Part shown: positions 2,096 through 53,438 of the stretch, piece by piece
Numbering within the stretch: the first letter of the stretch is position 1
Layout of the letters: every line of letters starts with the position of its first letter
Assembly: GCF_900115435.1 (NCBI RefSeq)
Contig: NZ_FOWK01000001.1
Location: 248,001-312,000, forward strand
Length of the DNA stretch: 64,000 bases
Reading direction: 5' to 3'
DNA from: Prevotella sp. tf2-5
Lineage (GTDB): Bacteria; Bacteroidota; Bacteroidia; Bacteroidales; Bacteroidaceae
Made by a program: the position numbers and the translations under genes
The notes under the pieces: generated by a model
Database searches by the model: none
What the model was told of the DNA's origin: nothing
What the model saw: the letters and a program-made list of their open reading frames with translations, nothing else

Positions 2096-3553
2096 ATGAA
2101 TGAGGTGAAAAATTCAACTAGAATATTTACAAGGCAACAAGTTGAAAACTTGTTGAAAGTAACTATTGGTAAAACTTTGTTACAGGTGGATACTCATGGA
2201 TTGTTTGCTCATCATGAGGGTAGAGACAAAGTAAAAGGAATAGCAGGTGACATCATTGAGGAGTCTGTTCTTGGATGCAAAAAAGATAGTGAACAGAAAC
2301 CAGACATTATAGTTGATGGTGTACAGACGGAATTGAAGACAACAGGAATGATTGAGCCAAAGAAAAAAGATTCGATCTATGTCTATGAGTGTAAAGAACC
2401 CGTAAGTATTACCGCTGTTTCAATTCCTGTTATTGTTAATGAGGAGTTTGAAACCTCTAACTTCTGGCACAAACTTGCCCATATGATTTGGGTGTACTAT
2501 TGGTATAAGTCGCCTGTGACTGTAAAATTGGATGGGTATAAGGATTTCCCTATATTGGGATACCAATTTTACGAGTTCAGCGAGGAAGACAAAGTGTTGC
2601 TGAGGCAAGACTGGCTATTGGTTCGCGACTTTCTGATTATGATTCACCGTGAATACCATTCTCAGAGTAAGCGAGAGGAGCAATACCCACGTCTTTCTCA
2701 TGAATTGCGAGGCAAACTGATGTTAATAGACACGGCACCAAAGTTTCCAAACAATCCAAGATTCCGTCTCAAGCGGGCTTATGCAACCGTTATTGCCGAC
2801 CAATATTTCTCGAAGAAACATTTTGAGAAACTTAATGAACGCATTAGTAAATATGCAGACATTGACAGAAAATGCCAACTAATGACATTAAGATACAAAG
2901 GTAAGACATTCAAGCAGATGGCTAAAGAACTAAGAGTTGACATTAAATTGGATGTGAAAAACTTTGCAGAGAGTGCTGTCGTGAAAATGTTTGGAGGTCA
3001 TGCTTCGAAATTAAATGATATAGAGGATTTCGCCAAGATAGGGATTATTGCTAAGAGTGTCCCTTTGTTATCTAATGGTAAGGGGAAAGAAGATATGAAA
3101 CTATTCTTACCAAATCTTGTTGATTGGACGAAAGAGTCAGAATTTGAGGAATCAGCAATCTACGATTACTTTGCAGGGCATCATTTTCTTCTAATTATTT
3201 ATAAGCATATTGGCTGTGATGTTGTATTTGAAGGCTTCAAGAGAGTATTCTTTGACGAGAAGTTTATTATGGAGAATGTGAAGAAAACTTGGGATGATGT
3301 GCGTAACCTTATTACAAACAAAAAACTTGAGATTGTACAAAAAACGAAAAAGGATGGGAGCGTGAGGATTAATAAATCTGGCACTATTATGGAATCACCT
3401 AATTTCCCAAAACTTGCAACCCATAAAGTATTTGTTAGAGGAGGCGCATCTAAGACTTTGGATAAATATAAGACCCTTGAAATAAACGGTCTGAAAATGC
3501 TGCCTCAATATATTTGGCTCGATAAGAAATATGTACAAGAACTAATAAAATAA
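2096..3553 (+). CDS. Sau3AI/MutH-family type II restriction endonuclease
   Basis: This 485-residue protein has the Sau3AI/MutH nuclease signature near its N-terminus. KGIAGDIIEES is followed by KPDIIVDG with D70 and then E79-x-K81 (ELKTTG), the metal-binding D...ExK centre of the fold. Sau3AI is a single-polypeptide enzyme of about this length that cuts before GATC and carries a second MutH-like domain lacking catalysis, which may occupy the C-terminal half here. The stop overlaps the methyltransferase start by one base (TAATG), so the two are coexpressed. GATC specificity is inferred from the family only. Confidence 0.85.
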   Translation: MNEVKNSTRIFTRQQVENLLKVTIGKTLLQVDTHGLFAHHEGRDKVKGIAGDIIEESVLGCKKDSEQKPDIIVDGVQTELKTTGMIEPKKKDSIYVYECKEPVSITAVSIPVIVNEEFETSNFWHKLAHMIWVYYWYKSPVTVKLDGYKDFPILGYQFYEFSEEDKVLLRQDWLLVRDFLIMIHREYHSQSKREEQYPRLSHELRGKLMLIDTAPKFPNNPRFRLKRAYATVIADQYFSKKHFEKLNERISKYADIDRKCQLMTLRYKGKTFKQMAKELRVDIKLDVKNFAESAVVKMFGGHASKLNDIEDFAKIGIIAKSVPLLSNGKGKEDMKLFLPNLVDWTKESEFEESAIYDYFAGHHFLLIIYKHIGCDVVFEGFKRVFFDEKFIMENVKKTWDDVRNLITNKKLEIVQKTKKDGSVRINKSGTIMESPNFPKLATHKVFVRGGASKTLDKYKTLEINGLKMLPQYIWLDKKYVQELIK

Positions 3554-5274
3554 TGGCAAAGAATATTATTCGTGTTGTAGAACTGTTTGCTGGTGTAGGA
3601 GGCTTCCGCATCGGACTTGAAGGTGCGTCAGATGCTTATGAGACTGTATGGAATAATCAGTGGGAACCTTCCACACAGCATCAAGATGCATCATTGGTGT
3701 ATCGTGCACGTTTTGGAGAGAAAGGGCATTCTAATAAAGATATAAACTTGGTACCAACTACAGAAATACCAGACCATGATTTACTTGTTGGTGGATTTCC
3801 CTGTCAAGACTATTCCGTTGCTGCTTCTTTAAGCAAATCTGGTGGAATTGAAGGTAAAAAGGGAGTTCTATGGTGGCAGATATATCGTATATTATTTGAA
3901 AAAGGAGACAAACGTCCGAAGTATATCTTCTTTGAGAATGTAGATCGCCTTTTAAATTCACCAGCAACACAAAGAGGACGTGACTTTGCTATTATTCTGG
4001 CTTCTTTGGCAGATTTGGGATATATTGTAGAATGGCGTATCATTAATGCTGCAGATTATGGAATGCCACAACGTAGAAGAAGAACCTATATTGTCGGATA
4101 CCAAACAGATACAGTTATCGCCCAGAAAATGGAATCAATGGCAGACTGGGTTGAATTTGATGGTGTATTAGCTAAAGCATTTGAGTATAAAGCAAAGCCT
4201 GGCACATTGTCAGAATTTAATATTGAAGGTACTATTCAGCAAGTTTCTGCCAAATTTAATAAAGGAAAGAAAGTAAGTCCCTTTGGCAATGCAGGTGTGA
4301 TGATGAATCGTCATGTCTATTCTGTTGATGCAGAACCTGTATACGATGGTCCACGTCAAACGCTGGGAGGAAATTTGGTTGATGAGAATCTCGTGCCAGA
4401 AGATTTCTTTATTTCAGAAGAGGATTTACCAAAATGGAAATACGAGAAGGGAGCAAAGAAGATTAATCGTGTATCAAAAGAAGGATATGAATATGTCTTT
4501 TCCGAGGGTGGAATGGCTTTCCCTGACTATTTAGACCAACCGTCTCGAACTATTATAACAGGGGAGGGTGGAACTGCACCTTCACGTTTTAAACATGTAG
4601 TTAAGACAAAGTCTGGTCGTTATCGTCGTTTGTTGCCTATCGAGTTAGAACGTATGAACATGTTTCCAGACAATCATACATATCATCCTGAAGTTACTGA
4701 TGGCAGACGTGCTTTCTTGATGGGAAATGCTTTAGTATGTGGTATTGTTGAACAGATAGGGAAGAGCCTATATCAGTTCATCTATGACGAGGCTCCTGTA
4801 TCTTCGCGTCCTATATTTATAAAACGTGATGCAAAACCAATGCTGGACTTAGGGCTATTTGCTGATGAGAAACCTATATTTGTAGTAAATCGTCCAAAAA
4901 AAGAATATACTCTTGATAAAGCAAAGCATTTGCTAATTGGCCTTGTGAAGAAAGACAATGAAGATTATTTCTTAAAAGAAGAGCCTACAAAGATATATTA
5001 TACAGGTAAGACTTCTTCATTCCCTTCGACAGTGGCATTGAATAAACTCTATTATTTCATGCCTTATATTAAGGAAAAAGGTGTTCGTGACCTATATTTG
5101 ATTCGTGTGGCTAGGGTTGGGAGTAAGGCAGAAATACATCCAGAGTCAAAAGATGAAGACCCAAGACTTGTGTTTGAATTGGAATACTTAGAGAGCCTAC
5201 CAAATTATGAAATGATAAAGCTTAATAGGTATTGGTTTAAGGATACATTATTAGGGAAGATTTTTAGAGAGTAA
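3553..5274 (+). CDS. DNA (cytosine-5) methyltransferase of the Sau3AI-like system
   Basis: Motifs appear in canonical order: motif I (FAGVGGF, residues 12-18), motif IV (GGFPCQDYS, catalytic C84), motif VI (ENV), motif VIII (MPQRRRRTYIVGY) and a C-terminal GNAL region of motif X. It transfers a methyl group from S-adenosylmethionine to C5 of cytosine and protects host DNA from the partner nuclease. At 573 residues it is longer than simple members such as HhaI methyltransferase (327). About 150 residues after motif X (roughly 425-573) match nothing I recognise. It is translationally coupled to the nuclease by TAATG. Confidence 0.92.
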   Translation: MAKNIIRVVELFAGVGGFRIGLEGASDAYETVWNNQWEPSTQHQDASLVYRARFGEKGHSNKDINLVPTTEIPDHDLLVGGFPCQDYSVAASLSKSGGIEGKKGVLWWQIYRILFEKGDKRPKYIFFENVDRLLNSPATQRGRDFAIILASLADLGYIVEWRIINAADYGMPQRRRRTYIVGYQTDTVIAQKMESMADWVEFDGVLAKAFEYKAKPGTLSEFNIEGTIQQVSAKFNKGKKVSPFGNAGVMMNRHVYSVDAEPVYDGPRQTLGGNLVDENLVPEDFFISEEDLPKWKYEKGAKKINRVSKEGYEYVFSEGGMAFPDYLDQPSRTIITGEGGTAPSRFKHVVKTKSGRYRRLLPIELERMNMFPDNHTYHPEVTDGRRAFLMGNALVCGIVEQIGKSLYQFIYDEAPVSSRPIFIKRDAKPMLDLGLFADEKPIFVVNRPKKEYTLDKAKHLLIGLVKKDNEDYFLKEEPTKIYYTGKTSSFPSTVALNKLYYFMPYIKEKGVRDLYLIRVARVGSKAEIHPESKDEDPRLVFELEYLESLPNYEMIKLNRYWFKDTLLGKIFRE

Positions 5275-5354
5275 TATCAGTGATTTATATAATTTACAAA
5301 TTGCCCACTGATAGTAATGGTAGCATTGAAGACTGATTTTATATGTATACATTA

Positions 5355-5444
5355 CTATGATTGTGAGTATACTTCTTTCACCATTTGATGCAGTAACTCA
5401 CGTGCTTTTTCAAGATCCATTGTCTCAGTGTCTTGAGTGGTCAT
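5355..5444 (-). CDS. Possible 29-residue peptide after the XRE gene
   Basis: An ATG at 5444 starts a short frame (MTTQDTETMDLEKARELL...) ending at a TAG at 5355. It is in the same frame as the XRE gene and begins 27 bases after that gene's stop, so it could be a separate cistron or a former C-terminal extension. Composition is amphipathic and helical. Nothing else supports it. Confidence 0.2.
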   Translation of the reverse strand: MTTQDTETMDLEKARELLHQMVKEVYSQS

Positions 5445-5474
5445 AATCGGTTCGTCAATATTTTTATTGTATGT

Positions 5475-5777
5475 TTAATACACAGGCTTCACCACTTCCA
5501 CCCTCATTCCGAGGGCGGCAATGATACGGTAGAATACACCAACACTGGGGGTAATGACGCCATTTTCTATCTTTGAGATGTATGATTTTGTGGTCTGTGT
5601 ACGCTCAGCTAGTTCGCTTTGAGTCATCTTAGCCTCTTTGCGAGCATCCTGAAGTATCTGACCTGAATAGAACGAATAGGCAGCCTCTTCGGCTCTTGCA
5701 CGTTCGGGAGTACCTTCCTTACCGAACTTGGCATCAAGAACGGCATCGTAGTCAACGATTTTGTGATTGTTTGTCAT
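5475..5777 (-). CDS. XRE-family HTH regulator, HigA-like antitoxin
   Basis: I place the start at the ATG at 5777, giving 100 residues beginning MTNNHKIVDYDAV. An upstream in-frame start would lie on the far side of the -7 box at 5782-5790 and cannot be on the same transcript. The last 60 residues form an XRE helix-turn-helix (MTQSELAERTQTTKSYISKIENG). The family is common in Bacteroidetes and often works as an antitoxin or autorepressor with a RelE/HigB-type toxin. No toxin gene is visible next to it. The mRNA seems to start at or near the ATG, so it may be leaderless. Confidence 0.75.
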   Translation of the reverse strand: MTNNHKIVDYDAVLDAKFGKEGTPERARAEEAAYSFYSGQILQDARKEAKMTQSELAERTQTTKSYISKIENGVITPSVGVFYRIIAALGMRVEVVKPVY

Positions 5778-5781
5778 GGGT

Positions 5782-5790
5782 GCAAAGTTA
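5782..5790 (-). promoter_or_regulatory. -7 box of the XRE gene, almost touching the start codon
   Basis: TAACTTTGC on the minus strand ends five bases before the ATG at 5777. This leaves no room for a ribosome-binding site and fixes the start choice. Confidence 0.55.
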
Positions 5791-5909
5791 GCAAAAGTTG
5801 TCGGATTATGCAACTTTTTGAGGAGATTTTTATTCAAAACGTGCTATGATACTCTATAAAACGCTTGCCAAAGTATCTCTGAATGTCATGATATTATAGG
5901 AACTGATAC

Positions 5910-6200
5910 TTAAAAAGTGATGTCAGGTACCTGTCCCTTCTGACATTGGGCGTCTTCAAAAAACCGCATAAACCGCAACCTGTTCTGAGAGGCAATCTGC
6001 TGGCTACAGCCCAGCATTTCGGCTATCGTCTCAACTGAATATTGAATCATGTCCCTCGCAAAACAATCTGCCTCATTCTGGAAACGAGGTGATGACAGGC
6101 TAATGTCGGGGGATGACTTTACCTTCTTGCTCTGGCAAGCGTCTCCTTTCGTCGCCGAGCGGTCATTCATTATCTTTGCGGAAGCGAGTATTATCTGCAT
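5910..6200 (-). pseudogene. Truncated yaaA (peroxide stress resistance protein)
   Basis: The first about 75 residues fit the N-terminus of the YaaA/DUF328 family: MQIILASAKIMND, SPRFQNEA, and then a stretch ending ASQNRLRFMRFFED. YaaA proteins are normally about 250 residues and limit iron-driven oxidative damage. Here the frame stops after 96 residues, the last dozen do not fit the family, and nothing downstream continues it in any frame. It lies nine bases after the C_GCAxxG_C_C gene, so it is probably the broken last gene of the nitrite-stress operon. The family match is from memory of the conserved N-terminus. Confidence 0.55.
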
Positions 6201-6209
6201 ATTTGACTT

Positions 6210-6596
6210 CTACCCATTTAATTGTTCTTCAAGAAATTCTGCTGCATCAGCTACACAGTCAGGACATTCTCTGAGTACCACCTTTGTTCCGATACCTTTC
6301 AGCAGCTTGCATTGTGTGGCTCCGTTTCTCTCTTGGAACTTGGTCATTATCTGACGCATCTGTTTCATGGACTTTGCCTTATCTTTGTTAACTAATCCCA
6401 GAACGAGGCCAGATCCAACAAGTGCGCCACATGTACCTTCCATATTTCCCATACCACCACCAAAAGCCCCAGCAATGTTCATGGCTTCATCCTCACTGAT
6501 TCCAGCTATATCTGCGTAGGTGTGAAGAATTGCTTGGGCGCAATTATGGCTGTTGCACCTCTTTTTCTCTGCTGCTATTTGTTTTCTTGTTTCCAT
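6210..6596 (-). CDS. C_GCAxxG_C_C family redox-type protein
   Basis: This 128-residue protein has the cysteine pattern that names the family: an early cysteine pair (CNSHNCAQ), then GTCGALVGSGLVLG, then two late cysteines (CKLL and CPDCV). Members are small, probably cofactor-binding proteins of uncertain role, often found near redox enzymes. It directly abuts the YgbA-like gene and lies in the nrf-linked minus-strand run. A glycine-rich stretch (GAFGGGMGN) precedes the GTCG motif, as usual. Function in nitrosative stress is inferred from context only. Confidence 0.85.
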   Translation of the reverse strand: METRKQIAAEKKRCNSHNCAQAILHTYADIAGISEDEAMNIAGAFGGGMGNMEGTCGALVGSGLVLGLVNKDKAKSMKQMRQIMTKFQERNGATQCKLLKGIGTKVVLRECPDCVADAAEFLEEQLNG

Positions 6597-7127
6597 TTAT
6601 TCTTTTTTCTTTTTGAGTTTATTTTTTAACCGCTTGTAGCCCTCAACACCAAGAATTGTAAGACCTCCATATTGACAGGTCTTAGCCAATCCGAATAGTA
6701 TAGTCCATAAGAATCCCTTTGCAGCAACACTTGTTGGTAGCAGCATCTGGGCGAAGGAAAGGATATAGAAGGGTATGCAGCACAAAAGAACAATAACACC
6801 AGTTCTGAAAGAGAGCGACTGGAGCCAGTGTTTCACTATATGAAAAAAATGAATGAAGGCATCCTTTGGGGCATACCATATCATTCTTGGCCCTTCCCAG
6901 CGCATCACTTCACGGATGGCCTCGCGCTCTTTAGGAGCATAGCAATGGGTAGGACAATCCTTGCAAGCTGTCTTCTGTTCGCCATACGTGCAATGATCAA
7001 GACGACGACAAGCGAAGTCTGCCAGATGCAAGTATTCATCCGGCATTGTGTCCTGATGAAGATGATGGCGACAATACAGCTCAATCATCTTACGGACTAT
7101 TCGCTTCTCTTGCTCAATCCTGGTCAT
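6597..7127 (-). CDS. YgbA_NO family protein with a membrane C-terminus
   Basis: Residues 1-100 match the family named for the nitric-oxide-inducible E. coli gene ygbA: VRKMIELYCRHHH-type start, CTYGEQKTACKDCPTHCY with a four-cysteine cluster, and REVMRWEGPRMIW. YgbA has been tied to recovery from nitric oxide damage. After the domain, two hydrophobic segments (about 108-128 and 138-162) and a lysine-rich tail add a membrane part not found in the simple form. The start overlaps the stop of the flavoprotein gene (ATGA), so it is translationally coupled within the nrf run. Its position supports a role in handling nitrite or NO. Confidence 0.8.
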   Translation of the reverse strand: MTRIEQEKRIVRKMIELYCRHHLHQDTMPDEYLHLADFACRRLDHCTYGEQKTACKDCPTHCYAPKEREAIREVMRWEGPRMIWYAPKDAFIHFFHIVKHWLQSLSFRTGVIVLLCCIPFYILSFAQMLLPTSVAAKGFLWTILFGLAKTCQYGGLTILGVEGYKRLKNKLKKKKE

Positions 7128-9327: not shown

Positions 9328-10886
9328 CAGATTTCAATCAGTTTTCCGTTCTTTTTCGCCTCTTCAATCCACTTGGGCACGATTTCCTGCAGGAAGCGTT
9401 GCTTGTTCTCGTTCAGCTTTTGCATGTTGAGACCGATGGCAGCCTGAGCCTTTGCCTTGGTGCTATAATCAGGCACAGGGATGGCTTCGGTATGTCCGTG
9501 CTTGGCGGCTACGCGGGCGATGAGCAAACGGGCCTGCTGGGCATAGTCGACAGAGTGGGAGAGCAGACGGGTAACTTCCTGAGGCGCATGGAAAGTAGCA
9601 CCATGAGAGGCGATGGCATAGTCCCAACGCCACTGGCTCTTGCGCAACAAAGCCTGGATAGGAGCCATCTCAGCCTCTGTAGCTCCCTTGTCGATGATGA
9701 ACTTAGCCTCGAAATGGGCACGGGCCAGTTCCTGCTCGGCACGGTTGCGCACCTCGTTGCACTTCTCCTGACGGTCGTACACATTCTGGCGCAGCACCTC
9801 GGCATCCTGACGGTGACAGGTCTGACAAGTGCGGTCAATCTTGGCCAATGGCGACTGAATCTGGTGGTCAGAGAACTTCACGCCACCTTCCTGCTTATAG
9901 GGCATGTGACAGTCGGCACACGATACGCCGCGCTGAGCATGGATACCGTGCTGCGACATCTCCCAACCCGGATGCTGAGCCTTCAGAATCTTCGTGCCAG
10001 ATAGCGGATGGATATAGTCGTAGAAACCAATCTCGTCGTAGTATTCCTCGGCAGCCTCGCAGGTTAATCCCTTGTCGTGCGGGAATACCAGATAGTTGGC
10101 CTTGCCGGGATTCTTCTCGTCGTTAGGCTTGATGAAGTAGTACTCCACGTGGCACTGAGCGCATACCAGCGAACGCATTTCCTGATGGGTAGCATTCTTC
10201 ACATCCAGACCACGACGGGCAAAGGCCTCGTAGAGGGCAGGACGGGCAGGGCGCAAATCCATGGTGCGGGCATCGTGACAGTCTGAGCAGCCGATGGTAT
10301 TCACCTCTTCAGCTCCTAACTCACTCCACTTCTTAGCATAGAAGTTAGCAGGATCAAATTGATCCTTACCATTACCCAGTTCGCGCATCATGCGAGGCAC
10401 ATCGGGTCCCTTACACGTCCAGCAGGTGGCGGGCTGCATATCTACGGCGATAGAATCGCTTCCATCGGCAGTCTTTACCATAATGCCTGGATTACCCGTA
10501 CGCAAAATCTTGCGCATATCCTCAAGGGCGTGCTTATGTCCACGAGGGGTATTGTAGTGGCGCGAGAAGGCATAGCCAGCCCACAGCACCACCATCTCAG
10601 GACGCTGCTCGAGCACATCTACCTCCTGCGACGAGTTGTACTTTGATTTGAACGTGGTGTCCTCTGTCATCGCCCACGTCTCGTACTCACGCGGATAGTC
10701 AGCCTTGAACTTCTCGTTCTGAGCGATTATTTCATCCTCAAACACAGTACGCTTGTTGTTGAACACACTGGCCACCTCGGCCCTGCGCTCCATCAGCGAC
10801 GACACAAGCAGTCCCAGGATAAAGACTACTGCCATAGATCCTCCGAAGAGTATCCAACCTTGCCATTTTTTCAATTGCTTTGCCAT
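9327..10886 (-). CDS. nrfA: Ammonia-forming cytochrome c nitrite reductase NrfA
   Basis: NrfA reduces nitrite to ammonium with six electrons at a lysine-ligated haem. The 519-residue protein has the diagnostic active-site CWTCK motif (C155-K159) and four CxxCH sites in order: CSDCH, CAQCH, CADCH and CQTCH. An N-terminal hydrophobic segment (about 8-30) exports or anchors it. It lies 41 bases after nrfH, its quinol-oxidising partner, and overlaps the haem-lyase gene behind it. This provides respiratory or detoxifying nitrite ammonification in an anaerobe. Confidence 0.97.
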   Translation of the reverse strand: MAKQLKKWQGWILFGGSMAVVFILGLLVSSLMERRAEVASVFNNKRTVFEDEIIAQNEKFKADYPREYETWAMTEDTTFKSKYNSSQEVDVLEQRPEMVVLWAGYAFSRHYNTPRGHKHALEDMRKILRTGNPGIMVKTADGSDSIAVDMQPATCWTCKGPDVPRMMRELGNGKDQFDPANFYAKKWSELGAEEVNTIGCSDCHDARTMDLRPARPALYEAFARRGLDVKNATHQEMRSLVCAQCHVEYYFIKPNDEKNPGKANYLVFPHDKGLTCEAAEEYYDEIGFYDYIHPLSGTKILKAQHPGWEMSQHGIHAQRGVSCADCHMPYKQEGGVKFSDHQIQSPLAKIDRTCQTCHRQDAEVLRQNVYDRQEKCNEVRNRAEQELARAHFEAKFIIDKGATEAEMAPIQALLRKSQWRWDYAIASHGATFHAPQEVTRLLSHSVDYAQQARLLIARVAAKHGHTEAIPVPDYSTKAKAQAAIGLNMQKLNENKQRFLQEIVPKWIEEAKKNGKLIEI

Positions 10887-48946: not shown

Positions 48947-48961
48947 ATCTAACGAAGGAGG

Positions 48962-48993
48962 AAAGACTAACAATTTCTGTATTGTTAGTCTTT
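48962..48993 (+). terminator. Terminator after argC, 13-bp perfect stem
   Basis: AAAGACTAACAAT and its exact complement flank a six-base loop and run into six T residues. The stem also contains the GACTAA/TTAGTC half-sites of the candidate operator. Confidence 0.85.
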
Positions 48994-49011
48994 TTTCCGA
49001 TTTTGTAAGTC
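48965..49011 (+). promoter_or_regulatory. Candidate three-part operator before the kelch/AraC gene
   Basis: GACTAA (48965), TTAGTC (ending 48990) and TGTAAGTC (49004-49011) end 41 and 20 bases before the -7 box at 49031. The same three parts with the same spacing occur before the secreted gene at 51021. Confidence 0.6.
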
Positions 49012-49030
49012 TTTGTCCATTTGATTTTAG

Positions 49031-49038
49031 TATCTTTG
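49031..49038 (+). promoter_or_regulatory. -7 box of the kelch/AraC gene
   Basis: TATCTTTG ends five bases before the ATG, so the transcript is probably leaderless or nearly so. Confidence 0.6.
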
Positions 49039-49043
49039 CAACG

Positions 49044-50756
49044 ATGAAGACAAAGATACGCCATATCACCCATCGCCTTTTAGTGTACCTCTGCCTGGTG
49101 ACACTACCCTCAACATTATATGCCAGCTCTGACAGCGAGGGTGCCATGTTCCGACAGGTAAAGATCGTGGCAGAACGGCTTGCCAGTCTTCATGTTCCCC
49201 GCAGTGGGCACTCCACCTTTTATATAAATGGGGAACTGACGGTGATAGGAGGACATACCTCCGGTTTCATCCCTACTCCCACCGCAGAATATTACAAAGA
49301 CGGTGAATGGCATCTGATGCAGATGGTCTATGCGCACGACGGCGGCTTAACTGTCCCGTTGAAATCGGGGAAAGTACTCATTGCAGGAGGTTTTGAGAAG
49401 CACTTGGGCATCGGTCAGACCTTTGTCGTGGAGAAATATGACCCCGCCGACCACAGTTTTACGGGTTTCGGCTGTCTGGATAAGAAGCGTGTGTCGGCAT
49501 CAGGTATTGAGCTGGACAGTAGTCAGGTGTATATAGCAGGTAACTGGTATCACGATGATGCTATTGAGCGTTTCGACGGAGTGGAGACGTTCTCGTTTTT
49601 CAAGAATGTTACAGAAGAGCGTACCCTCCCTCATCTGCTGCGCATCGCCCCGAATGACATTCTCATTCTCGGAGGTTCAGGCATTCATGGTGAGCCTTTG
49701 CATAGCGGTATTGTCGATCGTCTGCATGGCGATACCCTCCACGTTCCTTTGTTAGAGACATGGCGTCCTTTGCGATTCGACTTCGGACATCATTGCGACA
49801 ATAGTTTCATCGGTAATGCAGAGAAAGGTATTTTTGCCTATCTAATACCTGTGCAGAACGGCGACGGACAGGTAGCCATCGCCCATGTCGAGGGCACCAG
49901 TTTCTCCCTGTTGCCTACTGTCTGTCCTATTCCCACAAAGAGTCAGTGGGGCGATATTCGCTATTACACCCCTGTGGTAGTCGACCGTCAGGCAAAGCGG
50001 GGATACATGATGGGCATCGACAAGGACTGTCGCCAGTATATCCTCGCCATCGATTATAACAAACGCATTGACAAGGGTGTCCCTCTCACCTTATATTATA
50101 CTGACCCCTTGCCTGACGTATGCTCGCTTCCTGTGTTAACGCCCGATGGTGATCTGGTGATGGTAGGAGGAGTCAATTTCCAGACCAATAACAATTATTC
50201 GCCCAGCGGTTCCGCCTATCTGTTTCATGTCGGCACAACATCTGTTGCTGCCGACCATCAACAGTCATGGTGGCTATGGGTGCTGTTGGCTGTATTGGCT
50301 ATTATGGCTGTCGTGCTATTCGTTGTCATGAGGAAGCGTCGTCAACAGAAGGTCATGCCTCCTCCAATCAATCCCAACGAGATACTCATCCAACGCATCT
50401 GCTTGTTGATGGAAAATCAAAGACTCTTCTTGAACAGCGAGTTGAAAGTTTCCGATGTGGCTGCCGCATTGAATACCAATCAGCGTAATATCTCAGGGTG
50501 TGTGAAGTCGATGCGTGACTGTTCCTTCGCGCAGTTTGTCAATAACTACCGCATCGACTATGCCAAGCAATTACTGCGCACCCGTCCGGACATCAAATTG
50601 ACTGAGGTCTATCTCAAGTCTGGCTTTGCCAACGAGACTTCCTTCTTCCGCACTTTCAAGGCAATAACAGGACAGACTCCCAAGGAATGGATGACAAGCA
50701 CTGATAGCCTAAAAGGGGTGGAGTGCCTACCTAACAGGGAGGAAGGGGCATACTAA
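49044..50756 (+). CDS. Membrane-anchored kelch-like sensor with AraC-type DNA-binding domain
   Basis: This 570-residue protein has a signal sequence (ending about TLYAS), then about 370 residues of kelch-like beta-propeller repeats (NGELTVIGGHTSGF, GKVLIAGGFEKH, NDILILGGSG, GDLVMVGGVNF). One membrane helix follows (about 409-432), and a C-terminal AraC helix-turn-helix (about 460-560, with KVSDVAAALNTNQRNISGCV and LKSGFANETSFFRTFKAITG). A propeller outside the membrane joined directly to a DNA-binding domain inside suggests a one-step sensor-regulator without kinase. It probably controls its own gene and the secreted genes behind it. Confidence 0.82.
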   Translation: MKTKIRHITHRLLVYLCLVTLPSTLYASSDSEGAMFRQVKIVAERLASLHVPRSGHSTFYINGELTVIGGHTSGFIPTPTAEYYKDGEWHLMQMVYAHDGGLTVPLKSGKVLIAGGFEKHLGIGQTFVVEKYDPADHSFTGFGCLDKKRVSASGIELDSSQVYIAGNWYHDDAIERFDGVETFSFFKNVTEERTLPHLLRIAPNDILILGGSGIHGEPLHSGIVDRLHGDTLHVPLLETWRPLRFDFGHHCDNSFIGNAEKGIFAYLIPVQNGDGQVAIAHVEGTSFSLLPTVCPIPTKSQWGDIRYYTPVVVDRQAKRGYMMGIDKDCRQYILAIDYNKRIDKGVPLTLYYTDPLPDVCSLPVLTPDGDLVMVGGVNFQTNNNYSPSGSAYLFHVGTTSVAADHQQSWWLWVLLAVLAIMAVVLFVVMRKRRQQKVMPPPINPNEILIQRICLLMENQRLFLNSELKVSDVAAALNTNQRNISGCVKSMRDCSFAQFVNNYRIDYAKQLLRTRPDIKLTEVYLKSGFANETSFFRTFKAITGQTPKEWMTSTDSLKGVECLPNREEGAY

Positions 50757-50850
50757 CAGGGAGAAAGGGGCATCCTAACAACCGTTCGGCTCCAGCCGAA
50801 CGACTGAACGGCTCCAGCCAAACAACTGAACGCCTATAGCCGAAATAGAA
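50757..50850 (+). repeat. Decayed tandem repeats after the kelch/AraC gene
   Basis: An AACAGGGAG-AAGGGGCAT unit occurs twice across the gene's stop. Then come three degenerate copies of a unit like ACTGAACGGCTCCAGCC. The first carries a perfect 9-bp hairpin, CGTTCGGCT-CC-AGCCGAACG, at 50783-50802. The hairpin may stop transcription. Confidence 0.6.
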
Positions 50851-50900
50851 GACAACAAAAAGTGCTTGGGGTCAAAAAAAGTGATGAAAATCCTACAAAT

Positions 50901-50946
50901 GACTAATAATTTTTGCATGTTAGTCGATTTTCAAAAATTGTTAGTG
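50901..50946 (+). promoter_or_regulatory. Candidate three-part operator before the secreted gene
   Basis: GACTAA (50901), TTAGTC (ending 50925) and TGTTAGTG (50939-50946) end 42 and 21 bases before the -7 box at 50967. This mirrors 48965-49011. Confidence 0.6.
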
Positions 50947-50966
50947 CCAAAATAGCTAAGAATGAC

Positions 50967-50974
50967 TATATTTG
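50967..50974 (+). promoter_or_regulatory. -7 box of the secreted gene pair
   Basis: TATATTTG, 46 bases before the ATG at 51021; a GACTA lies just before it. Confidence 0.6.
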
Positions 50975-51020
50975 CAAAAATTAAGGCGTGTAACAAGTTA
51001 AACTAAAACCTATATATATT

Positions 51021-52052
51021 ATGAAGAAAACTATTTTTACCTTAGCAATGCTGTGTTGCACCATCGTGGGCAACGCACAAGTGACTGACGAACAGAGTGC
51101 CATCCTGCAGGTTGGTGACAACGCCCAGATCTTTTATGGAACCAACGCACTGGTAGAAGCATTGGAGGCAGCACCAGACCGTGGTGCCACCATCACCCTC
51201 TCATCAGGAACCTTCGCAGGCGGTACCATTACCAAATGCGTGAATATCTATGGTGCCGGCTGGGTAGAGCAGAAAGTTGCCAGAAACAACGACAATCCTT
51301 CTGACAACAGTATCCTGCCGACGATTCTCAGTTCTAAACTTACCATCAGCATTCCAGAAGAGCTGACGGCTCCTCACAACATCCATATTGAAGGACTCAG
51401 AACTGCCTACAGTATAGGATCTCATCTTTGTGATAAACCTATAGACGGACTGGAAATCATGAAATGCTATATAGTAGACTACAATACAGGCTTTCAATTT
51501 ACAGCAGAAAACAAGAACGTTGTTTTTACCCAGTGTTACCTTGATGCAGTATATGGTTTAGGTGACGCACTTATTCAAAATTGCGATATAATAAATGGTT
51601 GCAATATTACTTGTCTTAACGTTAACGAAAGCCATGTTGTGATTAATCATTGTATAGTAGGTGGTCATTACGGTTATGGCTCATCTTGCAAAGCACTTTT
51701 CACCAATAGTATGATTTGGGGTAATTACGGAATTGGCCCCAGCAGTACGGCCCGTAATTGCATGTTTAACATAGGAAGTATTTCCAATGTCGGCAGTGAA
51801 GACAATATTTTCAGTGTGGATTATAATCAGATTTTCGAAGATGCTACCAATATCAGTTACACCGATGCCCGCACCTTCAAGATCAAAGACGAACTGGTGG
51901 ATACCTACATGGGTGGCGATGGCACACAGATTGGCATCAACGGAGGTAACTACCCTTGGAACAAGGCGCCTCATACTCCACTGGTTACAGACTTGAAACT
52001 GGCGATTGACGGAACGAACCTGAAGGTGACCTACAATGCAGAGACGCGATAA
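51021..52052 (+). CDS. Secreted protein, probable right-handed beta-helix
   Basis: The 343-residue protein has a clear signal peptide (MKKTIFTLAMLCCTIVGNAQ). The mature part has regularly spaced short strands with N, G and C turns (NIHIEGLRTAYS, NKNVVFTQCYLDAVYG, NESHVVINHCIVGGHYG), which resembles a pectate-lyase-like beta helix. No catalytic residues were recognised. It lies 31 bases before a second secreted gene on one promoter that carries the candidate kelch/AraC operator. It may be a surface or extracellular glycan-binding protein. Confidence 0.65.
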   Translation: MKKTIFTLAMLCCTIVGNAQVTDEQSAILQVGDNAQIFYGTNALVEALEAAPDRGATITLSSGTFAGGTITKCVNIYGAGWVEQKVARNNDNPSDNSILPTILSSKLTISIPEELTAPHNIHIEGLRTAYSIGSHLCDKPIDGLEIMKCYIVDYNTGFQFTAENKNVVFTQCYLDAVYGLGDALIQNCDIINGCNITCLNVNESHVVINHCIVGGHYGYGSSCKALFTNSMIWGNYGIGPSSTARNCMFNIGSISNVGSEDNIFSVDYNQIFEDATNISYTDARTFKIKDELVDTYMGGDGTQIGINGGNYPWNKAPHTPLVTDLKLAIDGTNLKVTYNAETR

Positions 52053-52083
52053 GTAAGACATCACTCCATAAATACGCTAACAG

Positions 52084-53298
52084 ATGATAAAAGCAATCAA
52101 AGGAATGCTGTTAGCCGTGGTGATGATTATCAGCACTGCTGCTGCAGCACAAACAACCATCGCAGGAGGCGAGTACTGGATAGACGGTACGATAGATGCA
52201 TGTCAGGCGTTATCGTCGGGTGCTTCTATTGACATCAGTGCCCTCCAGCCCGGTCTGCACACACTCACCGTGCGTGTGAAAGACAGCAACGGGCTGTGGA
52301 GCAACCAGGTGGCGCGCATCTTCTTCGTATCACCTCCGGGACGCACCGATGCCACCAGCGTGACAGCCTGCGAATACTGGCTGGACGGTGTGAAGAAGCC
52401 GGCATACACCACGCTCAATATACAGACCATCGATATCAGCAGCCTTACACCGGGACTCCATACTATTATGGTACGCGTGAAGGACGACCTCGGTATCTGG
52501 AGCAACCAGATGAGCCGTATCTTCTTCGTGTCACCTCCGGGACGTACCGACGCCACCAGCGTGACAGTCTGTGAATACTGGCTGGACGGTGTGAAGAAGT
52601 CGGAGTACACCACGCTCAACTCACAGGTCATCGACATCAGCGACCTAGCACCGGGTCTGCATAAGGTACTCGTGAGGGTGAAGGACGATCTCGGTATCTG
52701 GAGCAACCAGATGAGCCGTACGTTCTTTGTAGCTCCAGGTGCTCAGACCGATGCGACAACCATCACGAAACGGGAGTTCTGGCTGGACGGTGATATCGTT
52801 CACCGACAGACCATTGACGACACGCCTGCTGTCATCGACATCAGTGCGTTGGATGCCGGTCTACACATGATGACCATGCGTGTACAGGACGACAAGGGCA
52901 TCTGGAGCAACCAGATGGCTCGTTCCTTCTATGTGGCACCGCTGCCTGCGCCTACCGCCACGCTCGCCAGATACATGTACTGGATTGACAATGACAAAGA
53001 ACATGCCGTCACAGGTGACATCACGGACGACAGCGGACAGCTCGTCATCGACCTGGAGCCGCTGGCACTGGAGGATGGAGACCATACACTGACATGGCTG
53101 GTCGGTGACTCGAAAGGTGCGTGGAGCGAGAAAGTGATAGAGACCTTCACGGTTGTTACCACTGGCATCAACAATACCCGTATGCCGACTAACCTGCGGA
53201 ATGACAACTGGTACGACCTGTCCGGTCGTAAACTCAACGGAATGCCCACCCGTCCCGGCATCTATATCAACAACGGTCGGAAGATTGTTGTTAAATAA
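52084..53298 (+). CDS. Secreted repeat protein, five modules of exactly 67 residues
   Basis: A signal peptide (ending TAAAAQ) is followed by five modules beginning at 52171, 52372, 52573, 52774 and 52975, each exactly 201 bases apart. Each module has a YWLDG-type start, DISxLxPGLH, V(R)VKDDxGIWSNQ and FFV. The modules resemble immunoglobulin-like beta domains. The C-terminus (WYDLSGRKLNGMPTRPGIYI) looks like the short sorting-type tail common on exported Bacteroidetes proteins. Modules 2 and 3 are nearly identical in DNA, which points to recent duplication. The function is unknown; adhesion or ligand binding is possible. Confidence 0.75.
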   Translation: MIKAIKGMLLAVVMIISTAAAAQTTIAGGEYWIDGTIDACQALSSGASIDISALQPGLHTLTVRVKDSNGLWSNQVARIFFVSPPGRTDATSVTACEYWLDGVKKPAYTTLNIQTIDISSLTPGLHTIMVRVKDDLGIWSNQMSRIFFVSPPGRTDATSVTVCEYWLDGVKKSEYTTLNSQVIDISDLAPGLHKVLVRVKDDLGIWSNQMSRTFFVAPGAQTDATTITKREFWLDGDIVHRQTIDDTPAVIDISALDAGLHMMTMRVQDDKGIWSNQMARSFYVAPLPAPTATLARYMYWIDNDKEHAVTGDITDDSGQLVIDLEPLALEDGDHTLTWLVGDSKGAWSEKVIETFTVVTTGINNTRMPTNLRNDNWYDLSGRKLNGMPTRPGIYINNGRKIVVK

Positions 53299-53320
53299 AA
53301 ATACCCCGAGGAAAATAACG

Positions 53321-53349
53321 GGCGGCAGGAGCAAGAGGCTTCTGCCGCC
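53321..53349 (+). terminator. Terminator after the secreted gene pair
   Basis: GGCGGCAG and CTGCCGCC enclose a 13-base loop, followed by ATTTTTAT. It closes the inserted cassette before the argD promoter. Confidence 0.75.
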
Positions 53350-53401
53350 ATTTTTATATAAAAAGATGACAAAAACATGAGGATATCTGAGAATTTTACC
53401 G

Positions 53402-53409
53402 TACCTTTG
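53402..53409 (+). promoter_or_regulatory. -7 box of the argD operon
   Basis: TACCTTTG, 29 bases before argD. Confidence 0.6.
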
Positions 53410-53438
53410 CATCGTTATTTATAAATAAGGTATTAGAC

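Follow-up and report, generated by a model that had tools for sequence, protein, structure and literature searches.

The 64,000-nucleotide stretch of Prevotella sp. tf2-5 analysed here (contig NZ_FOWK01000001.1, positions 248,001 to 312,000; "the window") contains the gene of a 570-aa kelch/AraC protein (49044..50756, + strand) with a signal peptide, a propeller, a membrane helix and a pair of AraC-type helix-turn-helix (HTH) motifs, and two promoters that share an operator-like element of three half-sites. Judging from sequence comparisons and a structural model, we consider it probable (roughly 0.77) that this protein is a one-piece membrane regulator, in which a propeller predicted to lie outside would act as sensor, and the AraC domain would bind the element and switch on the adjacent genes for secreted proteins.

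Results

The upstream operator consists of the inverted half-site 1 GACTAACAA (48965..48973, - strand), half-site 2 TTGTTAGTC (48982..48990, +) and half-site 3 TTGTAAGTC (49003..49011, +), the last being a direct repeat 21 bp from half-site 2, and is followed by a -7 box TATCTTTG (49031..49038, +) of the TAnnTTTG consensus (PMC7366714). Its cores GACTAA (48965-48970) and TTAGTC (48985-48990) have an outer span of 26 bases, and the distances to the -7 box are 41 bases for TTAGTC and 20 bases for half-site 3. The downstream operator has the same parts: half-site 1 GACTAATAA (50901..50909, -), half-site 2 ATGTTAGTC (50917..50925, +), half-site 3 TTGTTAGTG (50938..50946, +) and the -7 box TATATTTG (50967..50974, +), with the cores GACTAA (50901-50906) and TTAGTC (50920-50925), an outer span of 25 bases and distances to the box of 42 and 21 bases. 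All half-sites were located in the sequence and by the element scan, the boxes in the sequence. An earlier note on this DNA had described both operators, and its coordinates, motifs and distances are correct base for base.

Within the 3,511,834-base genome, the pattern GACTAAN{10,18}TTAGTC occurs at two places and the direct pair GTTAGTNN{11,15}TGTNAGT also at two, and in both searches these are the window promoters; the reversed patterns occur at four places in the first case and at one forward and three reverse places in the second. With just two sites of either pattern in the whole genome, a wider regulon in the own genome is unsupported.

The genus was sampled with 150 genomes, and a kelch/AraC protein was detected at E ≤ 1e-60 in 54 of them. 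A search for the strict motif GACTAACAN{9,12}TGTTAGTC gave 17 places, spread over 16 genomes (reversed: one place in one genome), and a comparison by eye places all 16 among the 54 with the protein. Sixteen of the 17 places lie at most 1.6 kb from a kelch/AraC gene, and the remaining one (G088:C52:4431-4456) stops 73 bases short of a contig end.

For a closer comparison, the 98 regulator genes in the fetched DNA, that of the window included, were reduced to 93 by removing identical 300-nt stretches (the near-duplicates L012/L014, L099/L100 and L119/L124 are still in the set), and the DNA from -600 relative to the gene start to +2500 relative to the gene end was scanned for the two arms, the third copy and the -7 box. 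A full element has at least 14/18 matches together with TAnnTTTG, an arm gap of 7-9, a spacing of 20-22 and a box distance of 27-30; scores and thresholds were fixed after the first sites had been viewed. The promoter comparison among related genomes that the earlier note had proposed gives the same geometry beside 56 of the 93 kelch/AraC genes, compared with 0 of 465 shuffles of the same stretches, which are first-order Markov samples rather than exact dinucleotide shuffles. A control with random stretches reached a score of at least 22 in 3 of 186 cases, but these were drawn from the same loci and are not a clean null, since elements away from the gene were later found there. The repetition of the motif had been taken as unlikely to arise by chance, and the own-genome, genus and shuffle counts rule out a chance origin of the paired operators.

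The element stands before the gene that follows the regulator (D score of at least 21) in 56 of the 93 genes, among them L132, which does not belong to the AGT type and is probably a false case. Before the regulator itself (U score of at least 23) it was found in 11 of 93, three of which are at the same time the D site of the tandem regulator ahead; the promoters between tandem regulators in L004, L005 and L007 count for two genes each. As a rule, a single operator stands before the next gene; one before the regulator itself, as in the window, belongs to a minority, and general autoregulation is unsupported. In L004, L005 and L007 (about 3235-6710), two kelch/AraC genes stand in tandem and are separated by an element, through which the first regulator may control the second. 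In L190, divergent promoters at 10074 (+) and 10100 (-) appear to share one inverted arm pair with separate third half-sites, and one side precedes the gene of a 162-aa signal-bearing protein whose end resembles that of targets with a tail of the type IX secretion system (T9SS).

Within the limits of a full element, 57 different sites (48 D, 9 U) have a narrow geometry. The arm gap is 7, 8 or 9 bp in 4, 42 and 11 sites. The distance from half-site 2 to half-site 3, selected at 20-22, is 21 bp in 52 of the 57, and that from the start of half-site 3 to the -7 box is 28 or 29 bp in 56. The broad consensus reads arm AATCGACTaaCAATT, mirror TTGttAGTCGATTTT, copy TTGtaAGTc, a T-rich patch and then TAtcTTTGC, with little conservation between the copy and the patch. 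Loss of the half-sites in relatives that keep the genes had been named as the outcome that would speak against the operator; instead, relatives with 38-68% identity again have the three-part element beside them, in differing genomic settings and with coordinated changes.

These changes concern the letters of the half-sites, whose types include GTTAGTC, GTAAGTC, GTCAGTC, GTGAGTC, GAGAGTC, GGGAGTC, GGCAGTC, GGTAGTC, GATAGTC and others. Of the 57 sites, 49 have the same letters 4-5 of the 9-base half-site in both arms (shuffled mean 15.1), and 32 have them in common between half-site 3 and an arm (shuffled mean 11.0). When the TT class is excluded, the latter agreement is 18 of 30, with a mean of 4.2 and a maximum of 12 in 5000 shuffles.

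The letters also covary with the regulator. Of the 93 proteins, 90 were aligned and 58 had a scored element (D of at least 21, else U of at least 23; L132 was dropped), and the analysis used 47 regulators below 80% identity and 460 columns, with z derived from 60 shuffles per column. Residue 530, an asparagine in the window (codon 50631..50633, +), ranks first of the 460 columns for letter 4 (z 8.1; next M1 with 5.9) and for letter 5 (z 9.5; next Y96 with 5.7). It lies just before the second recognition helix, 531-542 in the structural model, and residues 532 and 537 are likewise at or in this helix. After the propeller distance had been regressed out, 530 was first and 537 second of the 93 columns of aa 444-553 (0 of 300 permutations each), and 532 was sixth (1 of 300). 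T stands at letter 4 for 21 of the 22 regulators with N530 and for 10 of the 25 with other residues, and S530 (13 cases) never goes with TT or TA. Since the strict motif is nearly always near the gene and the half-site letters covary with residue 530, the kelch/AraC protein is the likely binder of the three-half-site element.

The regulator itself is a single chain, and the model fills its 570 aa with the propeller (aa 37-403; Pfam and structural model), the membrane helix (aa 409-432; model) and the AraC HTH pair (aa 444-558; Pfam and model). Kelch motifs and a propeller fold of the Kelch/galactose-oxidase-like type are present, and the AraC/XylS DNA-binding domain matches PF12833 (E 1.4e-16) and PF00165 (E 1.2e-6), both above the gathering score. 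No histidine kinase or receiver domain is among the families at E ≤ 1 in the Pfam scan of the regulator. The architecture of propeller, membrane helix and AraC domain without a kinase, as the earlier note had read it, thus agrees with Pfam and the model. Its placement outside and inside the membrane is predicted: the N-terminus is signal-peptide-like and helix 409-432 is followed by basic residues, and the AlphaFold model itself gives no membrane topology. The protein is 98% identical to its counterpart in "uncultured Prevotellaceae bacterium RUG037".

The usual regulated target appears to be the next gene, which mostly encodes a secreted protein of varied family, be it of the BspA-type leucine-rich-repeat (LRR), BACON or T9SS-tailed kind or that of the window. 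Targets were taken at a D score of at least 20, which yields 58 proteins, among them three tandem regulators, several proteins cut by contig ends and the probably false L132. A crude rule for signal peptides is passed by 52 of the 58, compared with 150 of 401 other long open reading frames (ORFs) of the same loci, a control of at least 200 aa from both strands that includes kelch/AraC proteins and possibly false ORFs. Among the failures, L007, L105 and L134 look signal-bearing by inspection and L122 is a 12-aa fragment. Clear exceptions to the secreted rule are the targets L018:6734-7357 and L131:6178-6813 (208 and 212 aa), which have a hydrophobic stretch and no signal peptide; for the L018 protein, the scan gave no Pfam family.

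Clustering of 57 target proteins gave groups of 22 and 10, five groups of 2-4 and ten singles, and the group of 10 makes the family of the window's 51021 protein a recurrent target. Nine members of the group of 22 were scanned, of which seven carry BspA-type LRR_5 and two are short and end in a T9SS-type tail. The Pfam scan covered 20 targets and the window's two; the domains among the 20 include LRR_5, BACON, Big_2, Peptidase C10 with LRR, Cleaved_Adhesin, Por_Secre_tail and Dockerin_1, and at least four of the 20 have no Pfam family.

Where an element lies apart from any marked regulator, the gene that follows is again mostly signal-bearing; regulators are unmarked in L184-L190, where the "far" label of the elements is a default. 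Exceptions are L186 at 2852 (-) and L187 at 761 (-), where the element precedes the gene of a 178-aa CxxC zinc-ribbon-like protein without signal peptide, and the nearest detected kelch/AraC gene is 7.7 kb off in one case and absent from the contig in the other. Several GTGAGTC-type elements stand before related lipoprotein genes in L131/L185 (G020:C38) and L189 (G071:C159), and perhaps belong to one minor regulon of several targets that uses a single half-site variant. The strict scan did not confirm another pattern match, at G020:C33:158386.

In the window, the order is argC, the kelch/AraC gene, two genes for signal-bearing proteins and a terminator-like hairpin (53321..53349, +; hairpin scan) that closes the cassette. 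The likely target (51021..52052, +) encodes 343 aa with a predicted signal peptide and no Pfam family, and the product of the likely co-transcribed gene (52084..53298, +) is signal-bearing, 404 aa long and has Y_Y_Y / Ig-like repeats. The downstream promoter probably drives both, and relatives of the 52084 protein share fetched loci with several relatives of the 51021 protein.

The cassette spans 48947-53438, with argC on one side and argD on the other. In 40 genus genomes surveyed, argC was found at E ≤ 1e-60 in 29. Within the fetched 1.5 kb downstream flank, argD follows in 16 (at most 110 bp away in 15), a kelch/AraC gene in 6 and neither in 7, one of which had just 155 bp of flank. From these alternatives 3' of argC, the window cassette looks inserted between argC and argD, and the junction looks like a recurrent insertion place for kelch/AraC cassettes.

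Discussion

The earlier reading of a self-contained envelope-sensing switch for two secreted proteins finds support here, with the second promoter probably serving both secreted genes. Several observations weigh against the regulator as we propose it. Thirty-five of the 93 genes have neither a U nor a D site at a score of at least 21, although four of these (L102, L109, L128, L147) have a weaker or more distant site and several end at a contig edge. A looser pattern with half-site variants has a real chance background: it gives 44 places, 15 of them not near a detected gene and 29 near one, and is partly chance, since it gives 25 places when read backwards (summed from the table). Genome G071 (86% complete) has two full elements on one contig (L189), but the search at E ≤ 1e-60 detected no kelch/AraC gene there. 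Choosing the 57 sites by half-site similarity (at least 7/9 and at least 5/9) mildly favours letter agreement and is omitted from the shuffles, although it permits both letters 4-5 to differ. Among the less variable letters, the best columns for letter 1 (T or A) and letter 9 are S108 (z 6.5) and Y338 (z 7.7; one regulator differs), both outside the HTH. Related regulators have HTH and operator letters in common by descent, an effect that the distance control lessens and cannot remove. Finally, the relation of residue 530 to the letters is a tendency and no strict code, because T530 spans several half-site types.

That the inverted repeats are intrinsic terminators only, the third half-site and the agreement of the two promoters being coincidental, is very improbable. 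A terminator-like hairpin does lie directly after argC (48957..48998, +; 18-nt arms, 89% complementary, T-run) and holds half-sites 1 and 2 of the upstream operator, so that the symmetry may come in part from a terminator. The intrinsic-terminator scan found this pattern and does not list the downstream element at 50901; a match says little by itself because 4 patterns were found against 3.8 expected in shuffles. Elements that start at most 60 bp after the regulator gene have at least 3/4 extra complementary arm positions in 41 of 45 cases (mean free energy, dG, -14.8), and U elements have extended arms in 9 of 10, whereas those farther off have long arms in just 4 of 9 (mean dG -11.4; -6.7 for the window's downstream site) and yet keep half-sites and spacing (counts include duplicates). 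Half-site 3 and the second promoter do not fit a terminator: half-site 3 lies outside the hairpin at the nearly constant 21 bp, and its letters also tend to agree. A hairpin alone would account for the arms and not for half-site 3. The element furthermore holds its distance to the -7 box and tracks a DNA-binding residue. As sole explanation the terminator is rejected on geometry, half-site 3 letters and arm lengths, and is kept as a second role. Since the arms are mostly lengthened where the element directly follows a gene, they probably also end the preceding transcript (that of argC, before the window's regulator), which is not needed for the operator role.

We regard it as highly improbable that another regulator, for instance a hybrid two-component system (HTCS) with a similar AraC domain, binds the element. 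The motifs inferred for HTCS in Bacteroides include direct repeats of comparable period, about 20-21 bp, e.g. two 16-bp sites with a 5-bp spacer (PMC3878776), the own genome holds 15 further loci similar to the AraC part of the regulator, and G071 has elements without a detected gene. However, the element occurs in the own genome solely beside the kelch/AraC gene and in the genus almost always so, and its letters covary with the recognition helix of this very protein. Whether the protein activates or represses cannot be read from the sequence itself. It could be a repressor that blocks the promoter from half-sites 1-3 until a signal releases it, as half-site 3 lies in the -33 region and a protein bound there might equally obstruct the polymerase; we consider this unlikely. 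AraC-family direct repeats at a -33-type position usually activate. Moreover, in the aligned promoters the stretch from half-site 3 to the T-rich patch shows no conserved TTTG, as is expected of activator-dependent promoters, a weak point because the -33 motif is not universal in Bacteroidetes (PMC7366714).

The favoured reading is that of the kelch/AraC protein as a probable activator. Its propeller is predicted to sense something outside the cell, probably a glycan, and the inside AraC domain would bind the element and activate the adjacent genes. The promoter consensus of B. fragilis has TAnnTTTG at -7 and TTTG near -33, the latter not being found in Flavobacterium johnsoniae (PMC7366714). 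Set against this consensus, the spacing to the -7 box suggests that half-site 3 covers the -33 region, so an AraC domain that occupies the 2-3 pair should be in contact with RNA polymerase and act as an activator. Half-sites 1 and 2 may hold the protein inactive or merely anchored, and a propeller with its ligand would either shift the 2-3 complex or make it more stable. As the same element precedes the window's regulator, this cassette would also regulate itself. More tentatively, the system might be a compact AraC light switch in the membrane, in which an unliganded dimer sits on half-sites 1-2 and a ligand re-seats it on 2-3 at -33 to turn the surface protein on. Cassettes might then be insulated from each other by a code between residue 530 with its neighbours and letters 4-5, each tying a surface protein to the contacts that the cell makes; this extended picture is doubtful as a whole.

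Parts of this design are already known, namely membrane-bound one-component regulators of the AraC type (PMC2386152) and direct repeats of about 20-21 bp for AraC domains (PMC3878776). The HTCS of Bacteroides likewise combine a periplasmic sensor, an AraC-type DNA-binding domain and a regulator gene adjoining its targets (PMC3878776, PMC3404733), and half-sites 2 and 3 form a direct-repeat operator with the 20-21 bp period of this type. In contrast to HTCS, the present regulator has no kinase or receiver, a kelch/galactose-oxidase-like propeller and an extra inverted half-site, and its targets are varied secreted proteins instead of SusC/SusD polysaccharide loci. In Saccharophagus degradans, 16 of 31 AraC-type regulators are membrane-bound and several adjoin presumed targets (PMC2386152), which is a similar arrangement on a membrane-bound chain; the accessible part of that account names no propeller and no operator, and the neighbours are polysaccharide-degrading enzymes. 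E. coli AraC at araO2/araI1/araI2 also uses three half-sites, one common to two possible pairs, and its promoter-proximal pair activates (PMC6018408), as we infer for the proximal pair here. However, that AraC is a soluble sugar-binding protein with a loop of about 200 bp, whereas here the third site is 17 bp away and inverted, and the sensor is predicted outside the membrane. The NCBIfam family TIGR04094 (YSIRK-targeted surface antigen transcriptional regulator) is also of the AraC type and by name serves a surface antigen; against it, the regulator scores 46.9, with a cut-off of 200, and the HTH alone matches. TIGR04094 is a Gram-positive family, encoded beside its target. A propeller-helix-AraC regulator with an inverted third site and surface targets is not mentioned in the titles and abstract openings that the literature searches listed, which covered open-licence papers in PMC and no subscription journals.

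The findings suggest that in Bacteroidales an outside sensor can act on a gene without any kinase. The predicted operator can be searched for directly and offers a way to assign regulators to surface proteins of unknown control, and the natural variation of residue 530 and the half-site letters provides a ready test of DNA choice by AraC-type proteins. The paired genes encode secreted proteins, among them those of the BspA-type LRR, BACON and T9SS-tailed kinds, and it is through proteins of this sort that Bacteroidales of the rumen and gut may meet fibre, host and neighbours.
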